In this document: positions 12,601 to 33,899 of the stretch, piece by piece
Position numbering within the stretch: position 1 is the stretch's first letter
How the letters are laid out: each line of letters starts with the position of its first letter
Assembly (NCBI GenBank): GCA_945905295.1
Contig: CAMDPX010000057.1
Location: 1 to 34,033, forward strand
Direction of reading: 5' to 3'
DNA: 34,033 nucleotides
Source of the DNA: Planctomyces sp. SH-PL62
GTDB lineage: Bacteria > Planctomycetota > Planctomycetia > Planctomycetales > Planctomycetaceae
Notes under the pieces: generated by a model
What the model was told of the DNA's origin: nothing
What the model saw: only the letters and a program-made list of their open reading frames with translations
The model's database searches: none
Translations under genes and position numbers: made by a program

Positions 12601-13975
12601 CGAAGAGGGTCGCCTCGAAGCCGTCGGGAATCTGCAAGTCGGCCAGCTTCGAGCTTTCGGCCTCGGCCTTGGTGGCGGCGGGATCGACTTTGATCTTCTC
12701 GTCGCCGAACAGCGAAAACTCCCAAATGCTGGCCCATTGGCCCGGCTTGGTTCCGAGACAGGTCACTCGGACGTAGCGCGGCTTCGTGTCGAGTTCGTGA
12801 ACGGCGTTGACCTCGGTTTCGTTCTGCGAGCGATCGGCCAGCATCGTCCAAGTCTTCGCGTCCTCCGAACCTTCGACCGTGTACTTGTACGGCGACGTGC
12901 GACCTTCCCAATCAATCCGGCAACCGGTGAGGTGCGTCGGTTTCCCCAAGTCCACCTGCAACCACTGCGGGACACTACCGCCGTCCGCGCACCAGCGACT
13001 GCCGCTCTTGCCGTCGAAGGCGTTCTTGGTGTCGTTGCCCGATTGCACGCTGGAGGCCGTGCTCGGCTTGTTGAGCGCGACGTTGACCGGGACGTACTCC
13101 GGTTCGGTCGGCTTCTGGATTTTGAGGTAGGGGGATTCGTGGGGCACGTTTTCAACGTGCCTCTTGGGTTCCTTCTTCTTGGGGCTGGCACTATCGAGCA
13201 CGTTGGAAACGTGCTCCACGTCCAACTTCCCGCAGGCCCACAGCGTCCCGCGCGTGAGCAGGTCGAGAAACTTCGGATCGCTGACCGTTTCGTTGTGATG
13301 TCCGAGCGTCGTGCCGAAGACGCGCGTCTTGTTCTCGCCGTACAGGTTCGTCCAAACGCAGACCTCTTCGGTCCCGCGCTCGCGGTTCTTGGCCGAGGCC
13401 AACGCCTGCGCCGTCGGCCAGAGCTTCTCGATCCAGTACAGCTCGCCGGCCGGATTGGCCCAGCCGGCTCCGAAGCCCGCCATGATCGGATGCGTGGCGT
13501 CGCGGTTGAGCACCTCATGCGGATACGCCGCTCCGTGCATCCGCGAAGTCACGCCGCAGAACGAGAACCAATCGTCCCGCCCGTCGCGATAACAGTGCAT
13601 CGCACAATGCACGACGACCGCCGGCAGCCCCGCTTTGTGCGGTTTCAGAATGTTGTCGACCCACGCTCGATCTTTGACGTCCGCAAAGCATTCGTCGTGA
13701 ATGACGACGTCGAAGCCGCGGCTCCAATCGGCCGACTCGTACAACGGGATCTTCGCGTTCGTCGAGCTGCCTCCTTGCCGCACGACCGTCACATCGAATT
13801 GAGCCCGCTGCTCAAGCCCCTTGGCGATCAAATCCTTTTGAACGTCGTAATCGTGACAGCAGCCGCCGGTCACAAGCAGAACCTTGAGCGGCTTGGGAGG
13901 CTCAGCCGCAAGCAACGAATCGGAGACGAAAACTAGCAACAGCAACAGCGAACGATTCAGCAGATTGAATTTCAT
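9602..13975 (-). CDS. Secreted ThuA / discoidin / PVC-type cytochrome fusion
   Basis: A 1457-residue exported protein. Domains in order: signal peptide (1 to about 23, LLLLLVFVSDSLLAAEP); ThuA-like domain of the glutamine-amidotransferase fold (about 28-245, KVLLVTGGCCHDYD, VVVHCAMHCYR); a repeat-encoded segment (about 253-280, EHVSNV and HVENVPH); an F5/8-type discoidin domain (about 295-425, NKPSTASS, WLQVDLG); a dehydrogenase-type propeller (about 460-810, GFEATLFAAPP, DGDGRADE); HEAT-like helices (about 820-1290); and a heme domain C1325-NK-C1328-H1329 with SMMPDNL as probable distal Met. ThuA plus PVC cytochrome fusions are a planctomycete theme in presumed periplasmic sugar oxidation. 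The ATG at 13973-13975 is chosen for the signal peptide; there is no clear Shine-Dalgarno. Confidence 0.88.
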   Translation of the reverse strand: MKFNLLNRSLLLLLVFVSDSLLAAEPPKPLKVLLVTGGCCHDYDVQKDLIAKGLEQRAQFDVTVVRQGGSSTNAKIPLYESADWSRGFDVVIHDECFADVKDRAWVDNILKPHKAGLPAVVVHCAMHCYRDGRDDWFSFCGVTSRMHGAAYPHEVLNRDATHPIMAGFGAGWANPAGELYWIEKLWPTAQALASAKNRERGTEEVCVWTNLYGENKTRVFGTTLGHHNETVSDPKFLDLLTRGTLWACGKLDVEHVSNVLDSASPKKKEPKRHVENVPHESPYLKIQKPTEPEYVPVNVALNKPSTASSVQSGNDTKNAFDGKSGSRWCADGGSVPQWLQVDLGKPTHLTGCRIDWEGRTSPYKYTVEGSEDAKTWTMLADRSQNETEVNAVHELDTKPRYVRVTCLGTKPGQWASIWEFSLFGDEKIKVDPAATKAEAESSKLADLQIPDGFEATLFAAPPAVNYPTFVAAAPDGTVYVSVDKNGSLDRQLKRGSVVRLRDIDGDGRADESKLFVADVDSPRGLVWDHDRLYLMHPPHLSAFIDKDGDGISDEQKILVKNIAFGFKDRPADHTSNGVTLGIDGWLYLAIGDFGFLEAEGTDGRKLQLRGGGVVRVRPDGTGLELYSNGTRNILEVALDPLLNGFTRDNTNDGGGWDIRLHHFTGLEDHGYPRLYMNFNDEIIQPLADYGGGSGCGALFLDEPGFPKGFSPALYTADWGRSIVYRHQLTPNGATFKPDQTQFLGIQRVTDLDVDANSNIYVASWKGATFNYAGEDVGYLVRVRPKGVPSQKLLDGAKASDEELVAELKSPSHRRRLEAQRTLLRRPVSDRATFELVRLAKETTQPLASRVAALFTLKQWLGEKSHATMIALADDAAIRPFVVRAVGDRADQRSGVPLEFLTAAVTSAEPRVRLEAANTIARLGLTNQAGAVVTLLSDTDPVIVHTAVQCLIRLKAAEACFAALDQSSAKDQLRTGALRALQSMHEANVVEGVIARLTNESDIDKRHGFLIALCRLHFVEGIWKGNSWGTRPDTRGPYFQPETWSESEKIAAVLQAELDKADADGTQFLATQLALHRIELKDGLKSLLAKVKADPRFVPAVIAQVYRSGNLSADALPLVTDIATAKGSAPELRTQAVVALLKSNHDDALVAAIAGLEQLRSGSASQGNDSPTSEAVTLFKEAGTLNRHAKRLLALAAVEKSSIWTDGGLLLLAEDRKKNRKNGNQDAAEQALTAAWSQPARRQQLLEAAQLVNARTHEELVREGLKDADPAVAALAKKLADTWKINQSAPTGPKIGSMKADEALVAVVKLKGDAARGEGVFVKLSCNKCHTVKPDEPIRGPYLPNVAKTYKREQLAESILFPNKTIAQGFVTNLFVMNNGKQISGFVISEAADVVTIRNNEGNELKLRVEDIDERAKQTISMMPDNLAKDLTLEELASLLTYLESLAPRATTSSPQAK
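13138..13220. repeat. Family A hairpin pair inside the ThuA/PVC gene
   Basis: Arms 13138-13161 and 13195-13220. On the gene's strand the second hairpin reads GAGCACGTTTCCAACGTGCTC with one base inserted in the usual core; both sides of the stem change (GAGCAC with GTGCTC instead of GGGCAC with GTGCCC), a compensatory pair. It is in frame and lies in the linker between the ThuA and discoidin domains. Confidence 0.85.
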
Positions 13976-15121: not shown

Positions 15122-17023
15122 TCAATCCAGCGTGAACTCTTTGAGGTACTTCTCCAGCGTCTGCTCGGTCGCGTTGGGCTGGTCTTTCTTCAGAAGCACA
15201 AAGCGTTCGAGGACGAGGGTGTCCATGTTGGTCGCGAGGAAGCAGCGGTAGGCGTGTTCGTGGTTCATGACGATCGGCTCGCCGCGGACGTTGAAGCTGG
15301 TGTTGATGAGCACTGGGCTGCCGGTCTGAGCCTCGAACGCTTTCAGCAGCTTGTAGTAGCGGCCGTGACGTTCGGCATCGACGGTTTGGATACGGGCGGA
15401 GTTATCGACGTGAGTCACCGCCGGGATGCACGACCGCAGCTCTTTGAGCTTGTCGATGCCGGTCAGCTTCGGAGCATCCGCCGGTCGTTGGGTTCGCTTC
15501 GACTCGCGCACGTTGGCGACGAGCAGCATGTAAGGCGAGGACTCGTGCGGTCGAGTTTCAAAGTATTCATCGACTCGTTCTTCAAGCACCGATGGAGCGA
15601 ATGGGCGGAAGGACTCGCGGAACTTGATGCGGACATTCATGGCGGATTGCATCTGCGGACTGCGGGCGTCGCCCAGGATGCTGCGGCTGCCGAGTGCTCG
15701 CGGGCCGAACTCCATGCGGCCTTGGACCCAGCCGACGACGTGTTCGTTGGCGATCAGGTTGGCGACGTGCTGGCAGAGTTCGTCGTCGTTGTCGAAGTGG
15801 CGGTACTTCGCTCCCTTCGCGTCGAGGAACTGTTTGATGTCGACTTCATCGCAACGGGGGCCGAGCAGCGAGCCGTGTTGTAAATCGTGGGGCACGTTTT
15901 CAACGTGCCCGTTTTGACGGTGCATTGCGGAGTCTTTGACGGGCACGTTGGAAACGTGCCCCACGAGGCGCGGCCGTCCCAACAACTGATGCCAGACGAA
16001 GAGCGCGGCTCCGAGTGCTCCGCCGGCGTCGCCGGCGGCGGGTTGAATCCATAAGTCCTCGAACGGGCCTTCGCGGAGGATGCGGCCATTCGCCACGCAG
16101 TTGAGCGCGACTCCGCCGGCCAGACAGAGACTCTTCTCGCCAGTGATAGCATGCACGTGGCGTGACATCCGCAACAGGATCTCTTCCGTGACTACTTGGA
16201 TGGATGCGGCAAGATCCATCTCGCGTTGCGTCAGCGGTGATTCCGGTTGTCGTGGTGGTCCGCCGAAGAGTTGGTCGAACTTCTTCGACGTCATCGTCAG
16301 ACCTTGGCAATAGTTGAAGTACGACAGGTCCATGCGGAACGAGCCGTCCTCTTTCAGATCGATCAGCTTCTCACGGATGAGGTCGGCGTACTTCGGTTCG
16401 CCATAGGGGGCGAGTCCCATCAGCTTGTATTCGCCGGAGTTCACCTTGAAGCCGCAGAAGAAAGTGAAGGCCGAATAGAGCAGCCCCGGTGAATGCGGAA
16501 AGTGCATCTCATGCGTCAGCCGCAGTTGGTTCCCTTCACCGATACCGATACTGGCGGTGGCCCATTCGCCGACGCCGTCGACGGTCAGCACGGCGGCATG
16601 CTCGAAGGGGGACGGATAGAACGCGCTGGCGGCGTGGGATTCGTGGTGTTCGGTGAAGACGAATCGTTTTTCGTATCCGGGGAGTTCTCGACGCATCGCG
16701 CGCGGCAGATACAGTTTGTCCTTCAGCCACACCGGCATCGCTTTGACGAAGGAACCGAAGCCGCTCGGCGCGTAGCCGAGATACGTCTCCAGCAGCCGAT
16801 CAAACTTGAGCAGCGGCTTGTCGTAGAACGCGACGTAATCGAGTTGGCTCGGTGTGATCCCCGCGGCGCTCAGGCAGTATTCGACCGCCAGCTTGGGGAA
16901 TCGCTCGTCATGCTTCTTGCGCGAGAAGCGTTCTTCTTGCGCGGCGGCGACGATCTCGCCATCCACGACGAGGCACGCGGCGGAGTCGTGATAGAAAGCG
17001 GAGAGGCCGAGGATACTGGTCAT
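15122..17023 (-). CDS. Carbamoyltransferase (NodU/CmcH/TobZ family)
   Basis: 633 residues, close to the family's usual 550-600 plus an insertion. The ASKHA-like N-terminal domain shows ILGLSAFYHDSAA at the start, HHESHAASAF (from 126), VDGVGEW (148-154) and GGVALNC (303-309). The C-terminal domain has GRMEFGPRALGSRS (435-448) and NTSFNVRGEP. The family transfers carbamoyl from carbamoyl phosphate to hydroxyl groups of sugars or secondary metabolites through a carbamoyl-adenylate; the acceptor is unknown. Residues 354-379 are encoded by a repeat pair inserted between GRPR and LLGP. The frame is open to 17314, but homology starts at the ATG at 17021-17023, only eight bases from another repeat pair, with no Shine-Dalgarno. 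Confidence 0.93.
   Translation of the reverse strand: MTSILGLSAFYHDSAACLVVDGEIVAAAQEERFSRKKHDERFPKLAVEYCLSAAGITPSQLDYVAFYDKPLLKFDRLLETYLGYAPSGFGSFVKAMPVWLKDKLYLPRAMRRELPGYEKRFVFTEHHESHAASAFYPSPFEHAAVLTVDGVGEWATASIGIGEGNQLRLTHEMHFPHSPGLLYSAFTFFCGFKVNSGEYKLMGLAPYGEPKYADLIREKLIDLKEDGSFRMDLSYFNYCQGLTMTSKKFDQLFGGPPRQPESPLTQREMDLAASIQVVTEEILLRMSRHVHAITGEKSLCLAGGVALNCVANGRILREGPFEDLWIQPAAGDAGGALGAALFVWHQLLGRPRLVGHVSNVPVKDSAMHRQNGHVENVPHDLQHGSLLGPRCDEVDIKQFLDAKGAKYRHFDNDDELCQHVANLIANEHVVGWVQGRMEFGPRALGSRSILGDARSPQMQSAMNVRIKFRESFRPFAPSVLEERVDEYFETRPHESSPYMLLVANVRESKRTQRPADAPKLTGIDKLKELRSCIPAVTHVDNSARIQTVDAERHGRYYKLLKAFEAQTGSPVLINTSFNVRGEPIVMNHEHAYRCFLATNMDTLVLERFVLLKKDQPNATEQTLEKYLKEFTLD
15886..15965. 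repeat. Family A hairpin pair inside the carbamoyltransferase gene
   Basis: Arms 15886-15911 and 15940-15965, separated by 28 bases. Each arm is a 9-bp-stem hairpin with TTC/TCC-type loop. Translated in the host frame the pair gives VGHVSNVP and GHVENVPH. It sits at the junction of the two domains. Confidence 0.92.
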
Positions 17024-17030
17024 GGATTTG

Positions 17031-17094
17031 TTCGTGGGGCACGTTTTCAACGTGCCGAGGATGGAACGGGCACGTTGAAAACGTGCCCCACGAA
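17031..17094. repeat. Family A hairpin pair next to the carbamoyltransferase start
   Basis: Arms 17031-17056 and 17067-17094; the outer ends TTCGTGGGG and CCCCACGAA pair exactly. The unit begins eight bases upstream of the carbamoyltransferase ATG, so it occupies the place of a ribosome-binding site and lies in the mRNA leader. Confidence 0.88.
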
Positions 17095-20381: not shown

Positions 20382-20463
20382 GGTCAAGATTCAATGACGA
20401 ATGACGAAATAGCCGGTTAGAATCCGACTTCGTTAGCCCGCACACGGGGGACATCGACACAAA

Positions 20464-20577
20464 CCCCACCGAGCTTGCCTCGGTGGTTCCAGGCTTTTGC
20501 ACTACGCGACGCAGGACTCAATTCCTCAATCATTCGTAGTGCAAAGGCCCGTTTCCACCGAGGCAAGCTCGGTGGGG
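20464..20577. repeat. GTAG double-hairpin pair, family C
   Basis: Outer arms CCACCGAG-GCAAG-CTCGGTGG at 20464-20486 and, inverted, 20555-20577; inner GTAGTGCAAA-type motifs at 20495-20506 (inverted) and 20536-20545. GACATC occurs on both sides (20450-20455 and 20583-20588), a possible short target duplication. It sits about 60 bases upstream of the SPFH gene. Relatives are at 24176-24289 and 33796-33899. Confidence 0.88.
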
Positions 20578-20639
20578 TTTGTGACATCCTCACCCGCGCG
20601 GGAGATATCCCGTCACTTTTCCGTTCTGGAGATCACATC

Positions 20640-21740
20640 ATGGGGTTGCTCGACAAACTGCGCGGCGAACTGATCGACATCATCGAGTGGGTGGATGATT
20701 CCAAACACACGCTCGTGTGGCGGTTTCCGAGGTATCAGAACGAAATCAAGAACGGCGCGCAGCTCATCGTGCGGCCGGGGCAGAAGGCAATCTTCGTGCA
20801 TCGGGGAGAGATCGCCGATGTGTTCGACGAAGGACACTACGAACTCAAGAGCGACAACCTGCCGATCCTCAGCACGATCATGGGCTGGAAGTATGGCTTC
20901 AACAGCCCGTTTCGCTCGGAGGTGTATTTCGTCAGCACGCGGCAGATCACCGACCTCAAGTGGGGGACACCGAATCCCGTGATGCTGCGCGATCCGGAGT
21001 TCGGCCCGATTCGCTTGCGAGCGTTCGGCACCTACACGCTCAAAGCGGTCGATCCGAAAGCGTTGCTCAAAGAGTTGGTCGGTGCCAACGGTGAGTTCAG
21101 CAGTGATGAACTCTCGGAGCTGATGCGGTCGATCATCACGCAGGCGTTTACCGACATGCTGGGGACGTCCAAAGTCGCCGCGTTGGACTTGGCGAGCCAC
21201 TATCAAGAGATGGCGGTCGAACTCCGCAAACTGGTCGCCGAGCGAATCGACGACGAATACGGGCTCGATATCCCGCAGTTGTTCATCGTCAATGTGTCGT
21301 TGCCGGAGGCGGTCGAGAAAGCGCTCGACGTGCGGACGAGCATGGGCGTCGTCGGCGACATGAACAAGTACCAGCAATATCAAATGGGCAACGCGATGAT
21401 GGCCGCCGCCGACAATCCTGGCGGAGGCGGATCCGAAGGGATGGGTTTAGGGATGGGCTTCGCGATGGCGAATCGGATGGCTCAGATGGGAGCGGCTCCG
21501 GTGGCACAGTCAGTTTCCGCACCTCCACCCGTTCCCAACGCGGCGACGTGGCACGCGGCGATTGGCGGGCAATCGTCAGGGCCACACACGCTGGCTCAGA
21601 TCCAGACTGCGATTCAGGGCGGGCAGATTGATCGTGCGACGCTCGTGTGGTGTGTCGGGATGAGTAACTGGCAACCGGCGGGCGAGGTGCCTCAAACGGC
21701 CGGCCTGTTCGGAGCCGCTCCGCCGCCGTTGCCGCGATAG
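20640..21740 (+). CDS. SPFH-domain protein with C-terminal GYF_2 domain (YdjI/COG4260-like)
   Basis: 366 residues. The N-terminal two thirds match the 'virion core protein' SPFH family typified by Bacillus YdjI: MGLLDKLRGELIDIIEW, LVWRFPRYQNEIKNGAQLIV, GQKAIFVHRGEIADVF, a central RAFGTYTLKAVDP and a helical ELMRSIITQAFTDML. A Gly/Met-rich linker (about 275-305) leads to a GYF_2-type domain (about 318-360, WHAAIGGQSSGPHT, WCVGMSNWQPAGEVP). Such proteins form membrane-associated assemblies linked to envelope stress with PspA-like proteins; no PspA gene is visible. GGAG at 20628-20631 is eight bases before the ATG at 20640. An upstream in-frame extension is encoded by the family C repeat and is not used. 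It precedes the zinc-ribbon gene. Confidence 0.88.
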   Translation: MGLLDKLRGELIDIIEWVDDSKHTLVWRFPRYQNEIKNGAQLIVRPGQKAIFVHRGEIADVFDEGHYELKSDNLPILSTIMGWKYGFNSPFRSEVYFVSTRQITDLKWGTPNPVMLRDPEFGPIRLRAFGTYTLKAVDPKALLKELVGANGEFSSDELSELMRSIITQAFTDMLGTSKVAALDLASHYQEMAVELRKLVAERIDDEYGLDIPQLFIVNVSLPEAVEKALDVRTSMGVVGDMNKYQQYQMGNAMMAAADNPGGGGSEGMGLGMGFAMANRMAQMGAAPVAQSVSAPPPVPNAATWHAAIGGQSSGPHTLAQIQTAIQGGQIDRATLVWCVGMSNWQPAGEVPQTAGLFGAAPPPLPR

Positions 21741-21777
21741 GAGGATTGAGTGCGGTTGTCGTGACCGCACTCACTTC

Positions 21778-21917
21778 GCACACGGATGCGAGAGGCGCAC
21801 ACGGATGGAATCGGAGCGAAGGATTCGTCGATCCGTGTGCGCCTCTCGCATCCGTGTGCGCCTCTCGCATCCGTGTGCGCCTCTCGCATCCGTGTGCGCC
21901 TCTCGCATCCGTGTGCG
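21778..21917. repeat. 19-bp tandem repeat array with inverted copies
   Basis: Four full copies of ATCCGTGTGCGCCTCTCGC at 21831-21906 and a partial fifth copy at 21907-21917. About one and a half copies in inverted orientation lie at 21778-21807, so the whole can fold into a long hairpin with alternative registers. It fills the gap between the SPFH and zinc-ribbon genes. It is open on the minus strand and creates repetitive false reading frames. Confidence 0.92.
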
Positions 21918-21978
21918 AAGGACGGACGCAACACTTTCCGATCCGCAATCCCAATTCAGGTAACCCCGGAGTCGATCC

Positions 21979-23112
21979 ATGTCTGACGCCGAAGCTCGCT
22001 CCAAGGCCGGTGAGTCCGTCGATGACGGCAAGGGGCGGATCTTTCCGTGCGAGAAATGCGGCGCGGACTTGGAGTTCAGCATCGGGCAGCAAGATCTCAA
22101 GTGTCCGTACTGCGGACATGTGAAGCTGATTGAGCTCGCAGCCGACGCGGACATCGGCGAGCAGGATTTTCACGCGATCCTCGAGAAGGTCCGCGAGTGG
22201 CGTGAGAAGTCCAGCGGCGAGGATCAATCTGATCAGAGCGAAGTTCGTTGCGTCGGCTGTGGAGGGAACGTCGTCTTCGTCGGTTCGCTGACCAGCAGCG
22301 AGTGCCCGTACTGCGGCTCGCCGATTCAGCTCGACAAAGTGCATGACTCGCCGAAACGCATCCCGGTGCATGGCGTGCTGCCGTTTCAGATCGAGAAGGA
22401 GAAGGCTCGGCAGAACCTGACGGCGTGGGTGCGGTCGCGCTGGTTTGCTCCCAGCGAGTTCGCATTGCGCGGTGTCGATGGGCGTTTCAACGGCGTCTAT
22501 CTGCCGTTTTGGACTTACGACTCGATGACCTTCAGCCGCTATTGGGGCGAACGCGGCGACCATTACTTCGTCACGGTCACGGAGAACAATCAGACGAAGC
22601 AAGAACGCCGCACGCGCTGGTCGTCGGTCAGCGGCAGTCATCAGCGGTTCTTCGACGACGTGCTGGTACTCGGAACGAATGGCATGCGCCGTGACATGAT
22701 GGATGGGCTCGAACCGTGGCCGCTGGAAAGCCTGCAGCCGTTCTCGCAAGAGTTGCTGGCCGGATTCCTGGCTCGGACTTATGAGGTGGAACTCGACGAA
22801 GGATTCCCAATCGCGAAAGAGAAAATGGATGCCGGCATCGCGTCCGACGTCCGCGGCTTGATCGGCGGCGACGAGCAGCGTGTCAGCGAGATCAAGACTC
22901 GCTATGACGCAATCACCTTTAAGCATCTGCTGCTGCCGGTGTGGTTGCTGGCGTATCGCTATCACAATAAGTCGTACCAAATCTTCATCAACGCCGTGAC
23001 GGGCGAAGTGCAGGGCGAGCGGCCTTATAGCTTCTGGAAAATTTTCCTCACCGTGCTGCTGGCCGTGGGCATCGTGGCGACCGTGGCGTTGGTCAGCAAA
23101 CTCATGAAGTAG
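21979..23112 (+). CDS. Double zinc-ribbon membrane protein (YdjG-like)
   Basis: 377 residues. Two zinc ribbons near the N-terminus use C24-C27-C42-C45 (CEKCGADL, CPYCGHVK) and C91-C94-C109-C112 (CVGCGGNV, CPYCGSPI). A central domain with FKHLLLPVWLLAYRYHNKSYQIFINAVTGEVQGERP follows, then a transmembrane helix (about 352-373) and a short basic tail. This is the architecture of Bacillus YdjG-like proteins, which with partners recruit PspA and an SPFH protein to the membrane; an SPFH gene directly upstream supports that reading. GGAG at 21968-21971 is seven bases before the ATG. The stop is the TAG of a GTAG hairpin unit. Confidence 0.87.
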   Translation: MSDAEARSKAGESVDDGKGRIFPCEKCGADLEFSIGQQDLKCPYCGHVKLIELAADADIGEQDFHAILEKVREWREKSSGEDQSDQSEVRCVGCGGNVVFVGSLTSSECPYCGSPIQLDKVHDSPKRIPVHGVLPFQIEKEKARQNLTAWVRSRWFAPSEFALRGVDGRFNGVYLPFWTYDSMTFSRYWGERGDHYFVTVTENNQTKQERRTRWSSVSGSHQRFFDDVLVLGTNGMRRDMMDGLEPWPLESLQPFSQELLAGFLARTYEVELDEGFPIAKEKMDAGIASDVRGLIGGDEQRVSEIKTRYDAITFKHLLLPVWLLAYRYHNKSYQIFINAVTGEVQGERPYSFWKIFLTVLLAVGIVATVALVSKLMK

Positions 23113-23169
23113 GACGGACAATCCTGTCCGTCTTCAAGACCTCACGACGGACAGGATTGTCCGTCCTAC
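23109..23169. repeat. GTAG hairpin pair, family E
   Basis: Identical 24-bp arms at 23109-23132 and, inverted, 23146-23169; each is GTAG followed by hairpin GACGGACA-atcc-TGTCCGTC. The first GTAG carries the stop codon of the zinc-ribbon gene. Confidence 0.93.
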
Positions 23170-23184
23170 GTTTGAAGTGATGAC

Positions 23185-23287
23185 GGGGTCGGGAGTCTTT
23201 TTCAGGTCGGGCCGATGGTCATTGGACGTCTGATGGCGAGTTGTTTGTCGATGGTTCAGTGCCGACCTGAAAAAGACTCCCGACCCC
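23185..23287. repeat. Perfect 26-bp inverted repeat that supplies the next gene's start
   Basis: Arms 23185-23210 and 23262-23287 (GGGGTCGGGAGTCTTTTTCA at the left) are exact inverted copies with a 51-bp loop. All plausible ATG starts of the following membrane-protein gene (23215, 23233, 23251) are in the loop, and the right arm is read through as CRPEKDSRP. Confidence 0.92.
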
Positions 23288-24705
23288 TGGCCCGCTGGTG
23301 GGCCATCGCGGGACTGACGCTGCTCGCCGCGACGTGGCAACTGTGGACTCCGCAGACTGAGTTCCCGCAAGTGCCGTTGTTCGGCTGGGCCGAATCGCTG
23401 CCGTTGTTTGTCGATTGGCTGGCGTTCGGTGTTCTGCTGGCGGCGTTGATGTTCGCGACCTGGAAACCCGATTCGCGACGAAGTTGGTTGGCGTTTGTCG
23501 TCTCGATAAGCGTGTTGATCGTCCTCGACCAGCACCGACTTCAGCCGTGGGCGTGGCAACTGCTGTTGATGGCGATTGTCTACGCGAACTTTCAGGCGAG
23601 CGGGGGGCGTCAGTCCCCCGGTTTGATCGAGTCAGATCAACGCCCCACCAGGGTGCTGACGCCCAATGGCACTTACTTTGAGCGGAATGGCGCTAGCCAC
23701 CGGTGTTGTGGGTGCGATGTTCCTCGCGAAATACCGGCGGCTAGCGCCTCGCCGCTCACTAAAGTGAGTGCCATTGGGCTGCCGCCCCCCGCTCGCCTGC
23801 TGCGAGTTTTGACCATCAGCATTTATTTCTGGTCTGCCGTATCGAAATTCGATGCGGGTTTCTACGCCTCGCACGGACAGACGTTGGTCGAGGCCCTGTT
23901 TCAATCGGTGAGTATCAACGCGGCTGGTTGGCCGGCGAGCGTGAAGTGGTGGTTGGCATTCTCACTTCCTCTTGCCGAGTTGTTTGTGGCCGTCGGCTTG
24001 TGTTGGCCGCGCACACGGCGAGCGGCGCTGATTGCGGCGACGGCGCTGCACGTTGGACTGATCCTCGCCTTGGGACCGACGGGCTTGGGACATCGGCCCG
24101 GCGTGTTGTTGTGGAACATCGCATTCATCGGCCACGACTGGTTGCTGTTCGGAGCGCGAGCGAACAGCTCTGATACCCCGCCGAGCTTGTCTCGGTGGTT
24201 CCGGGCCTTTGCACTACGAGCCTCTGCACTCGAATCGTCAATTGCCGTAGTGCAGAGGCCTGAAAACCACCGAGGCAAGCTCGGTGGGGTCGGATGTGTG
24301 TCGGTCATCCTCTTCGCGTGCGTGTGGCCGATCACGGGGCGGTGGGGCCTGTGCGATCATTGGCTGGCGTGGAGCGTGTACTCGACGCGGATTGAGCGGG
24401 TTGGTGTGACGCTGACCGACGAAGGTGTGCGACGATTACCAGAGTCGGCTCGACGACTCGCGGCGGATGGTGAGCTGTGGCTGGATCGCTGGTCGCTCGC
24501 GGCGCTGGAGGTGCCGGTTTATCCGCAGTTGCGGTTTCAGTTCGGTGTTGTTGAGGGACTTCGGCAACGATGTGGCACGGACAATCTTGTTGAGGTCAAC
24601 GTGCAGCGCTCTCAGCGCGACGGTGGCGCGTTTGAGCGTCTGACGGTTGAGCAGTTCGATGAACGGAGCCGTGCGTTCTGGATCAACACGCGGCCGCGCC
24701 CGTAG
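23215..24705 (+). CDS. DoxX/HTTM-like integral membrane protein with in-frame repeat insertions
   Basis: 496 residues as read. Several transmembrane stretches (for example WWAIAGLTLLAATW, LAFGVLLAALMFATW, WWLAFSLPLAELFVAVGL, LIAATALHVGLILAL) and the segment ISIYFWSAVSKFDAGFY, like that of DoxX, MauE and HTTM-type proteins, are native. A C-terminal soluble part (about 380-496) has no family I can name. Two stretches are repeat-derived: residues about 128-195 (203-bp nested unit) and about 321-359. The start is uncertain, since every candidate ATG is in a repeat loop; I give the first, but 23251 is equally possible. The stop is the TAG of another repeat. It may be a working protein with loop insertions or a decaying gene that stayed open. 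Confidence 0.72.
   Translation: MVIGRLMASCLSMVQCRPEKDSRPLARWWAIAGLTLLAATWQLWTPQTEFPQVPLFGWAESLPLFVDWLAFGVLLAALMFATWKPDSRRSWLAFVVSISVLIVLDQHRLQPWAWQLLLMAIVYANFQASGGRQSPGLIESDQRPTRVLTPNGTYFERNGASHRCCGCDVPREIPAASASPLTKVSAIGLPPPARLLRVLTISIYFWSAVSKFDAGFYASHGQTLVEALFQSVSINAAGWPASVKWWLAFSLPLAELFVAVGLCWPRTRRAALIAATALHVGLILALGPTGLGHRPGVLLWNIAFIGHDWLLFGARANSSDTPPSLSRWFRAFALRASALESSIAVVQRPENHRGKLGGVGCVSVILFACVWPITGRWGLCDHWLAWSVYSTRIERVGVTLTDEGVRRLPESARRLAADGELWLDRWSLAALEVPVYPQLRFQFGVVEGLRQRCGTDNLVEVNVQRSQRDGGAFERLTVEQFDERSRAFWINTRPRP
23595..23797. repeat. Nested inverted repeats inside the membrane-protein gene
   Basis: Outer arms GGCGAGCGGGGGGCG (23595 onward) and its inverse ending at 23797 belong to family B. 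Nested inside is a second pair: CCCAATGGCACTTACTTT...GGCGCTAGCCACCGG on the left and an inverted copy with substitutions (TCACTTTAGTGAG, GCTAGCCGCCGG) on the right. The whole is stop-free in the host frame. Confidence 0.82.
24176..24289. repeat. Family C double-hairpin pair inside the membrane-protein gene
   Basis: Outer arms 24176-24198 and 24267-24289, inner GTAGTGCA motifs around 24215 (inverted) and 24247. It is translated as a segment containing RWFRAFALRA and HRGKLGGVG, the same frame that is open upstream of the SPFH gene at 20475. Confidence 0.9.
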
Positions 24706-24782
24706 GTCAGCCTTTCCAGGCTGACCCAACCGGGAACGACGCGGATTGGAGCATTCGGGTCAGGCTAGAAAGCCTGACCTAC
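24702..24782. repeat. GTAG hairpin pair, family F, between convergent genes
   Basis: Left hairpin GTCAGCCTTTCCAGGCTGAC and right hairpin (minus strand) GTCAGGCTTTCTAGCCTGAC, each after GTAG. A C-G pair in the first stem is G-C in the second. The left GTAG gives the stop of the membrane-protein gene; the right arm runs into the M28 peptidase gene and provides its last codons and stop. Confidence 0.93.
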
Positions 24783-25643
24783 GGCGCGGCGGATCGCTCG
24801 CAAGCAGCCAGCGGTGACTTGGTAAAGGAAGTTGATGTCGAGCGTTTCGATGGTGTCGCTGCCGCGGTGATAGTGGGGGTTGCGCAGGAAGCTGGTGTCG
24901 GTGATCATCACGGCGGGGAAGCCGGCGTCCCAGAACGGGCTGTGATCGCTCAGCCGAGTTGCTTGCAGCAGGTTGCCGTTCTCCGGGACTTGCAGCGTTT
25001 CGGTTGGCAGACCGGCAATCTCTTGCAGGCCGTCGCGGAACAGTTCGATCAGGGATGACGAGTTCTGGTTGCCGATCACGGCGATGAAGTTGCCGGTCGT
25101 CGGATACTTGCCAACCAGTGGCTTGGGGAGCATCTGCGTATGCGGCCGTTGATCGCAGTAGCCGATCATCTCCAACGCGACCATGCCGAGCAGTCGCTCT
25201 GGCCGAGACAGCCACAAGCGTGCGTGCTCGGTCCCGCCCAACATCCCTTCCTCTTCGAGATCAGTGACGACCAGTTCGACTTCTGCGCCGTGGGCCGGTC
25301 GCCATTCCGGCCAACAACGGGCGATTTCCAACAGCCCGACAACCCCGCTGGCGTTGTCGTCCGCTCCGGGAGTTTCGAATCGCGAATCGAGATGCGCGGC
25401 GACGCACAACCAGGACTCCGCCCACGATGAAGAGGGCAGCGTCGCGATCAATTGGATGCCGGTCAGACGGTCGCCGATCCCGTTCACCACTTCAAATTCG
25501 TGACGGCGGACATGCCAACCGAACTGCTGAAGCTGATCCGTCACGTAGGTCCGCAGGGATTCCAGCTCCGCGCTGCCGTTGGGACGCGGGCGCACGATCG
25601 CCGCCAGATGTTGTTGCAAGCGGTCCGCTTCGATATCGGTCAT
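24765..25643 (-). CDS. M28-family zinc aminopeptidase-like protein
   Basis: 292 residues with no signal peptide. Metal ligands of the M28 fold are visible: AHLDS (His84, with Asp86 supporting), GADDNASG (bridging Asp95), LEEEG (Glu131 general base and Glu132), and a final HYHRGSDT (His257 or His259). M28 enzymes are di-zinc aminopeptidases or related amidohydrolases. The ATG at 25641-25643 overlaps the stop of the upstream TPR gene (ATGA), so the two are co-transcribed and translationally coupled. The last residues, VGQAF, and the TAG stop are encoded inside a hairpin arm of the repeat at 24702-24782, so the original C-terminus has been replaced or extended. Confidence 0.88.
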   Translation of the reverse strand: MTDIEADRLQQHLAAIVRPRPNGSAELESLRTYVTDQLQQFGWHVRRHEFEVVNGIGDRLTGIQLIATLPSSSWAESWLCVAAHLDSRFETPGADDNASGVVGLLEIARCWPEWRPAHGAEVELVVTDLEEEGMLGGTEHARLWLSRPERLLGMVALEMIGYCDQRPHTQMLPKPLVGKYPTTGNFIAVIGNQNSSSLIELFRDGLQEIAGLPTETLQVPENGNLLQATRLSDHSPFWDAGFPAVMITDTSFLRNPHYHRGSDTIETLDINFLYQVTAGCLRAIRRAVGQAF

Positions 25644-29212: not shown

Positions 29213-29266
29213 GTAGGTTGGGACTCTGTCCCGACTTCGACTGGTCGGGACAGAGTCCCAACCTAC
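29213..29266. repeat. GTAG hairpin pair, family J
   Basis: Exact inverted arms 29213-29235 and 29244-29266: GTAG followed by hairpin GTTGGGAC-tct-GTCCCGAC, loop of 8 bases. A second copy is translated within the gene at 32821-33684. Confidence 0.93.
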
Positions 29267-29281
29267 AAATCGCTCCGTCCA

Positions 29282-31744
29282 TCAATTCGCTTCGGCATCG
29301 GCGGTCGCGTGTCCGCCGCGCACCAGTTTTCGAGTCATCAGCACCTCGCCCACCAGCAGCGCGAGGAACGCCAGAAACAACAGTTGCCAGAGTTCGTGGC
29401 GCGGCAGTTCGTTGGAAGCGGCGGCCTGAATCTCGCGAGCCTCGCGAATGAATTGCAGTCGCTCGTCGGCGGTGATCGATGCGATTTGCTCATCGGTCAA
29501 CGGCGTGAGATTGGACTCCGCCCGATCGGCGTTGACGACGAATAATTCACGACCCGGCGCGGCGAGCGGCTTCACGGGTTTGTTCTTCTCAGGCGCGACC
29601 GCCTGGCCCGACAGGCGCTGCTCGTCAGCCGGCTCTTTGCGTCGCAGCGAGTAAACGCCCGGCAGAGACGTGTCGTCGAGGATCAACAACTGCGAGGCCC
29701 CCTCGCCGCGGAGTTTCGCTTCGCGTGGCTCGCCGTCCGGTCCTTCAAAGACGAAGGCCGTTGGAGTTCCGCCGTCCGCCGGCTTATCAGACGGCGGGAG
29801 TGATCCGACCAACGGTTGTCCCACCGCGACGTTTCGTTCGCCGCGCCGCGATGCGAGCTGAAACAACCACTCATGCACGAACGCCACGAAATCCGGCTTG
29901 GCCAGCAGCGTGCTCCAGTCAGCATCCAACGGTGAGGTCAGCAACATCACGTTTCCGCGGCCGTATTGACCACCGATCAGATACGGCGCGCCGGTCTGCA
30001 ACCGCGCCAGAACGACGGCTGGCCGGCGTTCGCCCTCGTCCTTCTCCGAGTCGTCATCTGGCCGGGGGGCTTCACCTTCTTCGGCCTTCTTCTGTTTGTC
30101 CTCCACCATCTGCACCTTCCACCAACGACTGAATCGCGCGGTCGTGAACGCGGCACCACGCTCGGCACGGAAGCGTTGCAGCCACGGCGATTCGAGCGTC
30201 GGATTCGCAATGAACACTCCTTGCTCACGATGCTCGGCCGGTTCGGATTCGATCTCAACCAACGACACGCCGAGCAAGCCCGTCTCTGCCGCGAAGAGCT
30301 GGCTGTTGTAGCGATCCTTCTCGACCCGATTGCCCAGCGCGAGCCCGACTCCACCACCCCGCTTCGTGTAGTCGGCCAGCGCGGCGAACTGAGCGTCGGT
30401 CAGTTGCGGCACATTCGCCAGCACGACCGTCGCGTACTTGTCGAGTTCGTTTTTCTCGTGGGGCACGTTTTCAACGTGCCCGTCCTTTGGGTTCGCTTTT
30501 GGAGCATCTCCGGGCACGTTGGAAACGTGCCCCACGTTCCATTCGGACCACTTCACAACGGTCGGTTTGACCCACGGCGTGTCGTTGCCACTTGCGGCGA
30601 GCGCGGCACGCACGAAGAACGTTTCGCTCTGGACCGGATCGGGACGCGGATCGCCATCGACCAGTAACACCGGCAGTGCTTCCGTCACGACGATCACCGC
30701 TTCGCTCGTGTTGTCGGTCGGCAAGTCATCGGCATCGAGAGCGACTCGGACGAGATGCGAACCCGTACTCTCGAAGCGATGCTCGAACTCGACGTTCGCT
30801 TCTCCCCCCGGCGCGAGCGTCACGGAGACCGTGCGTTCGGCGAGACGTTGCCCATCGACCTCAAAATGCACTTGCCGAGTCACGTTGGTCGAACCGCCGC
30901 TGAAGCGGACTCGCGATTGAACACGCACGGGAAAGCCGGGCACCGATAACTCGCGCGACGGCTGCAAGCGCTCGACGTGGAAGTTCAATCGCTCGGCCGA
31001 AGGGGGCAATTCCTGGTCATCGCCGGCACCGGCGGCGAGCACGTTGACGACCCACAAATGCGGCGTGACCGACGACTGCTTCCGCAGATCATCCAGCCGC
31101 AACCAGAGATTCGAGTCCTCGGAGAACCAACCTTGCGCCTGCCCATCGGTCAGCAGGATGACCTCACGCCGCAGGTGATTCGTCCGGCTGAGCAGTTTGA
31201 CCGCGTGAGCCAGCGACTCCGGAAAATTCGCCGTTCCGGCCGGCGGCGGCAGTCGCTTGAGCACGTCGCGCACGCGGTCCATATCGCGTGTCGGCGGGTC
31301 GATCAACGTGCGAACTTGCTCGCGAGCTTCCAGCAGCGTGACCGTGTCCCCCGGCCGAAGCCGACTCAAGAACTTGTCGATCCAACGCACCGATAACTCT
31401 TGCGGCGTGACCGATGTCGCCTCCCAAGCCGTGCTGTACGAGCCATCGAGAATGATCACCACATCGCGATTCGGCTGTGGCCCGATATCACCCAGCCACC
31501 TCGCGCTCACCCACGGCCGAGCCAACGCGATCGCCAACCACACGATCAACGCCATCCGCAGCAACAGCAGCCACAAGTCTTCCAGCCACACACGTCGCCG
31601 AGTCTCCTGGCCCAGCTTGAGAAACTGCATCGCGCCCCAAGAGACGATGTCGTACTTCTTCTTACTCAACAGATGCGCGATCACCGGCAAGGCGACGCCC
31701 GCCAAACCTGCCAGCATCCACGGATTGAGCAGTTCAAAAGACAT
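29282..31744 (-). CDS. BatA/vWA membrane protein
   Basis: 820 residues. The N-terminus is the BatA-type membrane region (LLNPWMLAGLAGVALPVIAHLL, helix 1; LLLLRMALIVWLAIALARPW, about 59-78). A von Willebrand A domain follows with MIDAS residues D100-G-S102-Y-S104 and LLTDG near 198. Next come a beta-rich region and a class-I glutamine-amidotransferase-like domain (about 365-620) and a C-terminal helix (about 783-803, LWQLLFLAFLALLVGEVLM). Such proteins usually lie with MoxR and DUF58 genes and are thought to act in envelope assembly; neither is here. Residues about 403-430 are repeat-encoded. ATG at 31742-31744 directly abuts a repeat, with no Shine-Dalgarno. Last gene of a three-gene minus-strand cluster. 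Confidence 0.88.
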   Translation of the reverse strand: MSFELLNPWMLAGLAGVALPVIAHLLSKKKYDIVSWGAMQFLKLGQETRRRVWLEDLWLLLLRMALIVWLAIALARPWVSARWLGDIGPQPNRDVVIILDGSYSTAWEATSVTPQELSVRWIDKFLSRLRPGDTVTLLEAREQVRTLIDPPTRDMDRVRDVLKRLPPPAGTANFPESLAHAVKLLSRTNHLRREVILLTDGQAQGWFSEDSNLWLRLDDLRKQSSVTPHLWVVNVLAAGAGDDQELPPSAERLNFHVERLQPSRELSVPGFPVRVQSRVRFSGGSTNVTRQVHFEVDGQRLAERTVSVTLAPGGEANVEFEHRFESTGSHLVRVALDADDLPTDNTSEAVIVVTEALPVLLVDGDPRPDPVQSETFFVRAALAASGNDTPWVKPTVVKWSEWNVGHVSNVPGDAPKANPKDGHVENVPHEKNELDKYATVVLANVPQLTDAQFAALADYTKRGGGVGLALGNRVEKDRYNSQLFAAETGLLGVSLVEIESEPAEHREQGVFIANPTLESPWLQRFRAERGAAFTTARFSRWWKVQMVEDKQKKAEEGEAPRPDDDSEKDEGERRPAVVLARLQTGAPYLIGGQYGRGNVMLLTSPLDADWSTLLAKPDFVAFVHEWLFQLASRRGERNVAVGQPLVGSLPPSDKPADGGTPTAFVFEGPDGEPREAKLRGEGASQLLILDDTSLPGVYSLRRKEPADEQRLSGQAVAPEKNKPVKPLAAPGRELFVVNADRAESNLTPLTDEQIASITADERLQFIREAREIQAAASNELPRHELWQLLFLAFLALLVGEVLMTRKLVRGGHATADAEAN
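30457..30536. repeat. Family A hairpin pair inside the BatA/vWA gene
   Basis: Arms 30457-30482 and 30511-30536, 28-base spacer, the same arm and spacer lengths as at 15886-15965 though the spacer sequence differs. It is translated VGHVSNVPG and GHVENVPH. Confidence 0.92.
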
Positions 31745-32824: not shown

Positions 32825-33684
32825 AGCCTCGACAAAAACTCGAACGATTCGCGCAGCACTTCGGGAGCCATGTGGCTGTGCCGGCTGAGTTCCACGTTCA
32901 CGCAGCCGGTGTAACCAATCTCGCGAAGCGTCGCCATGACCGGTGGGAAGTCGATCTCTCCCTCGCCGAACCGCAGATGCTCGTGGACGCCGCGCCGCAT
33001 GTCTTCGATGTGAACGTTGCACAGCCGGTCGCCCCACTGCCGCAGATGTTCTGGGATCGAGCCGGCCTCGACGCATTGCACGTGGCCGATGTCAATCGTT
33101 AGTCCGAATCGTGGTGAACCGACTTGCTCGGCGAGTTGCCCGTATTGCTCGAGCGTCTCGATCAACATGCCCGGCTCCGGCTCGAAGGCGAGTTGCATGT
33201 GGTTCTGCTCGGCATAGCGAGTGACTTGGCGACAGCCATCGAGCAACCATTGCCACGCGATGTCGTTGTCTGCCGTAGGTTGGGACTCCGTCCCGGCCCG
33301 GTCGGGACAGAGTCCCAACCTACTCACGCCCGACCAGAACGAGACCGCGTCGGAGTTCAACTCCTTCGCGATGTCGATGCAGCGGCAGAGAAAATCGACG
33401 CGGCGTGAACGGCCCTCGGTCGGCGGCGAGATCAACGTCGGCTCGTGCTTCTGACGCGGGTCGAGCAGAAACCGCGCGCCGGTCTCGATTACCGAGCGTA
33501 GCCGCAGCCGTTCGAGCGTGCGGCGCATCTCGGCAAGTTCGCTCGTGAAGTTCGATGCGAACGGATTGAGGCAATGCTGATCGACGGTGATCGCGACCGA
33601 TTGATAGCCGACTTCGGCCAGCAGTTCGAGGCCGTCTTGCCAGCGATGAAACGCCAAGCCATTGGTGTTGTAGCCGAGCAGCAT
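32821..33684 (-). CDS. Sugar phosphate isomerase/epimerase-like TIM-barrel protein (AP endonuclease 2 fold)
   Basis: 287 residues. MLLGYNTNGLAFHRWQDGLELLAEVGYQSVAIT is the typical N-terminus of this family (PF01261), and metal-binding positions are recognisable: FEPEPG (Glu), TIDIGH (Asp, His), NVHIEDM (His) and CVNVEL (terminal Glu). Members isomerise or epimerise keto-sugars or inosose; the substrate is unknown. The ATG at 33682-33684 starts the fold; an open extension to 33849 comes from a family C repeat. Residues about 121-137 (RLGLCPDRAGTESQPT) are encoded by a family J repeat. The gene overlaps the glycosidase-like gene by ATG/TGA, suggesting a joint role in carbohydrate use. Confidence 0.85.
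   Translation of the reverse strand: MLLGYNTNGLAFHRWQDGLELLAEVGYQSVAITVDQHCLNPFASNFTSELAEMRRTLERLRLRSVIETGARFLLDPRQKHEPTLISPPTEGRSRRVDFLCRCIDIAKELNSDAVSFWSGVSRLGLCPDRAGTESQPTADNDIAWQWLLDGCRQVTRYAEQNHMQLAFEPEPGMLIETLEQYGQLAEQVGSPRFGLTIDIGHVQCVEAGSIPEHLRQWGDRLCNVHIEDMRRGVHEHLRFGEGEIDFPPVMATLREIGYTGCVNVELSRHSHMAPEVLRESFEFLSRL
33275..33323. repeat. Family J hairpin pair inside the sugar isomerase-like gene
   Basis: Arms 33275-33297 and 33301-33323 start with GTAGG on their own strands; the copy at 29213-29266 is intergenic. The pair is translated in frame between SFWSGVS and ADNDIAW. Confidence 0.88.
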
Positions 33685-33795
33685 GACGACGCCGGGGCAA
33701 AAAACGGGATAACGGCATTCGGCGAGAGACCGATCGCCGATTAGGACTCCGCAACACGCTGTAGAATTAGTCCTCACCCAAGCGATGTTTGCAAA

Positions 33796-33899
33796 CCCCA
33801 CCGAGCTTGCCTCGGCGGATTCGGGCTTTTGCACTACTCGGCGATTCACTCGAAATCATGGTCGACGTAGTGCAAAAGCCCGCTAACCACCGAGGCAAG
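33796..33899. repeat. Family C double-hairpin pair, right arm interrupted
   Basis: Left arm 33796-33818 is complete; the GTAGTGCAAAAGCC inner motif is near 33867-33880; the right arm begins at 33887 and stops after GAGGCAAG at 33899, where the MITE-like element starts. The missing remainder, CTCGGTGGGG, is at 138-147. Confidence 0.85.

Follow-up and report, generated by a model that had tools for sequence, protein, structure and literature searches.

REP-like palindromes at the start, in two loops and at the stop of a planctomycete membrane-protein gene

The window, i.e. the whole analysed stretch of 34,033 nucleotides, contains on its plus strand an open reading frame of 496 codons (23215–24705) with two translated palindromic inserts, and we read its product as a MauE/GGCX-like membrane protein. 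The Pfam MauE family matches residues 194–286 (23794–24072, plus strand) with 28.8 bits, above the gathering score of 27. The AlphaFold model, built with an alignment of 30 relatives, has a mean pLDDT of 82.3; in it, long helices precede a C-terminal domain that combines helices and strands. All 11 Foldseek matches of this model at E ≤ 0.001 were to vitamin K-dependent gamma-carboxylase (GGCX; E 1.7e-5), but among the best 15 matches listed the TM-scores were 0.41–0.48, i.e. below 0.5, at an identity of 11–13%, and a search of the PDB with the sequence profile of the family returned no chain up to E of 10. The upstream gene (21979–23112, plus strand) has weak zinc-ribbon matches only, and its end is conserved beside the orthologues of the membrane-protein gene. 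The downstream gene (24765–25643, minus strand) is convergent and matches Pfam Peptidase_M28.

The preliminary description of this locus had the gene rebuilt by three repeat units; we count four, denoted here A to D, all on the plus strand. Unit A (23185–23287) is an inverted pair with arms at 23185–23210 and 23262–23287 that are complementary at 26 of 26 positions; its 51-nt spacer contains the ATG at 23215, and residues 1–24 of the protein are derived from the unit. By an analytic estimate, chance alone would yield about 4e-9 such pairs in 34 kb, and the RNA fold of unit A has z = -6.95 relative to dinucleotide shuffles. Unit B (23593–23799; residues 127–195) is a nested palindrome in an interhelical loop, with an outer pair at 23593–23616/23776–23799 (92%) and two inner pairs at 23651–23679/23761–23789 and 23679–23707/23730–23758 (83% each). 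Unit C (24175–24290; residues 321–359), a palindrome of 116 bp, also occupies an interhelical loop, and has an outer pair at 24175–24200/24265–24290 (92%) and an inner one at 24199–24218/24246–24265. Unit D (24700–24784) is a pair at 24700–24727/24757–24784 (89%) with GTAG at both feet (GTAG at 24702–24705, CTAC at the other end), and the TAG stop of the gene (24703–24705) coincides with bases 2–4 of this GTAG. Hence the other structural claims of that description stand: the start codon in the loop of a perfect 26-bp repeat, the translated nested pair, the translated family C pair, the stop within the GTAG of a fourth unit, and a frame open throughout. A fifth, GTAG-headed pair (23109–23169, plus strand; arms 23109–23132/23146–23169, complementary at 24/24 positions) provides the TAG stop of the upstream gene.

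Repeats do contribute the start, the middle and the stop. Yet the word "rebuilt" is too strong: helices and C-terminal domain alike are ancestral, and the repeats are confined to the N-terminal tail, two of the loops and the final residues. The AlphaFold model is confident apart from the same tail and the two inserts: the block means of pLDDT are 43–53 for residues 131–190 and 47–48 for residues 321–350, compared to more than 90 in the flanking helices. At unit B the preceding helix ends at residue 126 and the next one begins at 192; at unit C the helix ends at 312, a low-confidence helix lies inside the insert, and the next confident helix spans residues 356–377. Thus, both inserts are modelled as disordered loops between well-folded helices, and the helix count would place both loops on one side of the membrane.

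All in-frame starts preceding the first conserved helix (23215, 23233, the TTG at 23245, and 23251) are located within the loop of unit A. The sequence contains no in-frame start between the upstream in-frame stop (ending at 23175) and 23215, and the next one beyond the loop, at 23371, falls within the conserved part, so that its use would entail the loss of helix 1. As no usable in-frame start lies outside the loop, translation very probably begins inside a mobile unit. In nine other genomic copies of unit A the loop has a common sequence, and an ATG in the register of 23215 occurs in three of them.

All four families have many copies in the genome, with at least 97 matches, counted on both strands, for A, 88 for B, 79 for C and 57 for D, each number being a lower bound obtained by scoring 40 of 240, 433, 138 and 184 candidates, respectively. 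Family C is present in all nine genomes of the genus in which it was searched for. Examination of all 13 Y1_Tnp loci of the genome for flanking units revealed a RAYT-like Y1/HUH gene between two A units (L123) and a Y1 gene between two C units (L129). The L123 protein contains NHWH and YVERNG, which we take to be the HUH and tyrosine motifs of RAYTs; with the NCBIfam RAYT model (cut-off 80) it scores 70.2 and the L129 protein 21.6, both below the cut-off. Since A and C units bracket such genes, they are probably mobilised in trans by these putative Y1/HUH transposases. None of the 13 loci has a B or D unit beside the Y1 gene; no GTAG is found at the feet of the arms in families A and B, and family C has GTAG in the inner arm (CGTAGTGC), its outer foot being devoid of it. 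The lack of a Y1 gene bracketed by B or D and of a GTAG foot in A and B counts against the explanation preferred below.

At one further Y1 transposase locus of the same genome (L127, contig C225) we observed an adjoining GTAGGTTGGGACTCCGTCCCGA-type pair close to a pair in the window (29213–29266), and a second stretch of the window, 33300–33323, is grouped with it. This is probably another family with its own transposase.

A search of 149 genomes, its own included, located the core of the host protein (residues 198–319) in 95. The sequence relatives are almost all labelled as planctomycetes, the nearest being MAGs, and some are labelled as lake-derived. Within the genus, 9 of the 11 other genomes have an orthologue (none was found in G007 and G009), and in all nine the frame is open, with a length of 412–476 aa.

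Comparison of ten genomes, including the one studied here (G000), shows that these places may harbour a different unit, a decayed one or none. At the start, unit A is present only in G000, L010 and L011, and the genomes without it likely start at or near the stop of the upstream gene. In the first loop (site 1), G000 has unit B, and L015 has a decayed insert which by eye retains the outer arms of unit B, with no BLAST match to the loci of the G000 genome. The same loop in L010, L011 and L013 is occupied by a palindrome with arms of 30–32 nt, read as QVFNLP...QVENLP or similar; L014 has a single short form of it, L012 and L016 have degenerate forms, and in L017 and L018 the loop is longer and shows no clear palindrome. 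In other genera the loop is mostly short. In the second loop (site 2), unit C is unique to G000; L010, L011, L012 and L015 have a CCCGAAGCG-type pair, of which L016 has a decayed version and L017 a single arm that is translated in another frame, whereas the pair of L013 and L014 is of a GTAGTCCCGCC type. At the stop, unit D is shared by G000 and L015, a different GTAG pair is present in L010, L011 and L013, and a remnant in L014; L016 and L018 have TAG without a clear pair, and L012 and L017 have TGA. Since families differ at the same places across relatives, at least three families have entered site 2, at least two site 1, and at least two the stop.

The distribution of the families does not follow the tree, as units B and D are shared by G000 and L015, and other families are present in the closer L010 and L011. 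Hence gene conversion, mixed with insertion, may have moved units. A possible sign of recombination is that over residues 28–124 G000 and L014 are unusually close (dS 0.46, as against 1.05 and 0.85 for the two remaining parts of the gene), but in a tree of these residues G000 is placed with weak support. It is also conceivable that GTAG stops existed beforehand and offered the units a place to land, but here the sequence points both ways: in L018 the stop lies in a GTAG with no clear unit, and in L010 and L011 the upstream gene ends in TGA.

We consider it highly likely that the locus is a functional planctomycete membrane-protein gene entered at four permissive places, one spanning its start, two in loops between helices and one at its stop, by several families of REP-like mobile palindromes. 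Y1/HUH transposases would mobilise the units in trans, and selection would remove most coding insertions, leaving those which have a multiple of three bases and a stop-free frame and fall in loops tolerant of extra disordered residues. Translation would now begin at the ATG of the unit A loop and end at the TAG provided by the GTAG tag of unit D, and the inserted peptides are probably without a role of their own.

Alternatively, the units could have been adopted, that is, kept for a role, such as regulation of translation by the unit A hairpin or a function of the inserted loops. The hairpin around the start codon is very stable, its arms match at 26 of 26 positions in G000 and L011 and at 25 of 26 in L010, with a more diverged loop, and of the loop ATGs of G000 only that at 23215 is retained in all three genomes. 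However, all nine other copies of unit A examined in the genome have nearly identical arms as well, so this conservation is not specific to the host gene, and the loop units vary between species, decay, and are modelled as disordered. Thus, adoption seems unlikely.

If, instead, the insertions had inactivated the gene, the open frame would be a chance survivor in GC-rich DNA. Four insertions within one gene could be taken as a sign of that, and so could the pairwise dN/dS at residues 28–124, which is 0.50 relative to L010 and 0.54 relative to L011; these values argue against strong constraint on the first four helices in this branch and hence count against the explanation by a functional gene. 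Outside this segment dN/dS is low, being 0.10 and 0.13 at residues 196–312, and 0.175 and 0.19 at residues 362–494, relative to L010 and L011, respectively. The host protein retains all 35 columns that are invariant in the 29 other sequences and all 55 in which 26 or more of the 29 agree, the predicted fold outside the inserts is confident, and most of the nine open orthologues also have inserts. The comparison with orthologues had been suggested in the preliminary description, and frame and domain order, a break in which was named there as refuting the claim, prove to be intact. Given the open orthologues in 9 of 11 genomes, the 35 of 35 invariant residues, and dN/dS of 0.10–0.18 relative to the nearest sequence in two of three parts, the comparative sequence data indicate that the host gene is not a pseudogene, and we regard inactivation as very improbable.

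Misplacement of repeat copies in the gene by short-read assembly is the least credible alternative: the source is a draft MAG of 476 contigs and the contig ends fall in a repeat, but an error at the host gene is unlikely, as units A, B and C have no full-length copy elsewhere in the genome closer than 83–86% identity, so that reads can be told apart, unit A occupies the identical place in two other assemblies with conserved junctions and flanks, and the frame is maintained through all the units.

At both contig ends (33900–34033 and 1–133) the sequence belongs to a 151-bp element, bounded by the inverted ends GGGCCTGTCGGTTTAAT...ATTAAACCGACAGGCCC, which interrupts a family C unit (33795–33899 and 134–148) and has CAAG at both sides. 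In the fetched copies of this element (L209–L223), CAAG or CTTG adjoins the left end in 14 of 15, and the flank, judged by eye, is a family C arm in 10 of 15; the 37 genome matches are mostly at contig ends. The element looks like a MITE or an IS end with the family C palindrome as its target. It also accounts for the 116 bp by which the window ends overlap, so that this overlap does not prove circularity.

For a gene of the kind preferred here, functional and repeatedly entered by mobile palindromes, we tentatively suggest a broader reading, which is possible rather than probable: that in this genus the palindromes are ready-made gene parts, with A units replacing starts, GTAG units replacing stops, and loops being landing pads. 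If so, since some A units have in their loop an ATG from which a frame without stops leads out of the unit, insertion of such a unit over a start would exchange start codon and N-terminus at once and place them under the hairpin of the unit, and the two interhelical loops would be landing pads in which units have been swapped repeatedly between species. The locus offers a comparative case of mobile DNA turned into coding sequence, start and stop of one gene that remains unbroken; with ten orthologues in one genus, where units are present, different, decayed or absent, the remodelling of the protein and the tolerated places become countable.

Rickettsia palindromic elements (RPE) are inserted in frame in genes that remain functional. 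By description, our case resembles these elements, named in PMC3733652, in having in-frame palindromes in genes that stay intact; the organism is unrelated, and in our case a Y1 transposase gene is bracketed by units of two of the families. With the REPIN/RAYT system (TnpA-REP), as portrayed in PMC8266576 and PMC6006769, the units share a Y1/HUH gene bracketed by palindromic units (A and C), the GTAG tag (family D), and short palindromic units in high copy number. The difference is that the families described here are longer than single REPs, and no bracketed transposase was found for B and D at the 13 loci. According to PMC3733652, GTAG/CGTC REPs inside ORFs, dimers adding residues, and TAG stops formed from GTAG are already described; insertion in loops or linkers is suggested there, recB of two Xanthomonas species has different REPs at about one site, and the intragenic REPs include the PVC superphylum. 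Hence in-frame REPs and REPs supplying stop codons are already known. Many N-terminal REPs are regarded in PMC3733652 as likely misannotation, whereas, judged by the sequence, the start of the host gene can lie only within unit A. Compared to the published intragenic GTAG/CGTC REPs, there are four families in one gene, A and B without a GTAG foot, and turnover within one genus; what the present case adds as new is thus the very probable donation of a start codon, the four families, and the turnover of families at fixed loops within a genus. Beyond PMC3733652, PMC6006769 and PMC8266576, the papers listed by our literature searches included no other on translated palindromes in planctomycetes.

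We examined 72 distinct genomic copies (C, n = 27; B, n = 25; A, n = 10; D, n = 10), which are the best-matching ones and not a random sample, leaving out L069, L075, L077, L079, L080 and L082 as second views of places already counted. Fourteen of the 72 are flanked on either side by at least 80 codons of an ORF, and two of these belong to ORF 23215–24705. Interior to ORFs with Pfam support, the host gene included, are 5 of 25 B copies and 1 of 27 C copies, and none of the ten A or the ten D copies. Family B units are in frame in genes of a PUA/SAM methyltransferase (L076), an RND transporter (L092), a DEAD-box helicase (L098) and a CheA-like kinase (L100), being situated between named domains in L076, L098 and L100. 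Eight others were not counted, having a domain on one side only (L047, L112, L115) or no Pfam match (L083, L090, L104, L108, L110). The helicase ORF (L098, contig C31) seemingly has a second repeat-like stretch further on, GSAGASPSR, presumably a repeat peptide.

The units are not coding-friendly as a rule, as the families split when compared to mononucleotide shuffles: of six frames, more are stop-free than in the shuffles in families A (2.80 vs 1.57) and C (2.48 vs 1.70), and fewer in families B (1.40 vs 1.80) and D (1.10 vs 2.32).

The earlier statement that few genes show such a structure therefore holds in part. Start, middle and stop all derived from repeats in one gene are unusual; yet one fifth of the B copies examined are in frame in Pfam-supported genes, two more genes of the window hold another palindrome between Pfam domains, and PMC3733652 already reports REPs inside genes as well as stops taken from the TAG of GTAG REPs.

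That other palindrome belongs to a family GTGGGGCACGTT...AACGTGCCCCAC, with two copies (15885–15966 and 17031–17094) in frame in a carbamoyltransferase gene, the first being between its two Pfam domains, a third (13137–13222) in a ThuA/F5-8/DUF7133 ORF between the ThuA and F5/8 domains, and a further one (30457–30536) in a BatA/VWA protein. A family C unit (20434–20607) covers the 5' end of a Band 7 protein ORF (20475–21740); since the Band 7 domain begins at residue 81, the real start may follow the unit. Finally, a 19-bp unit (ATCCGTGTGCGCCTCTCGC) at 21774–21925 is repeated head-to-tail about four times, with inverted copies immediately upstream.
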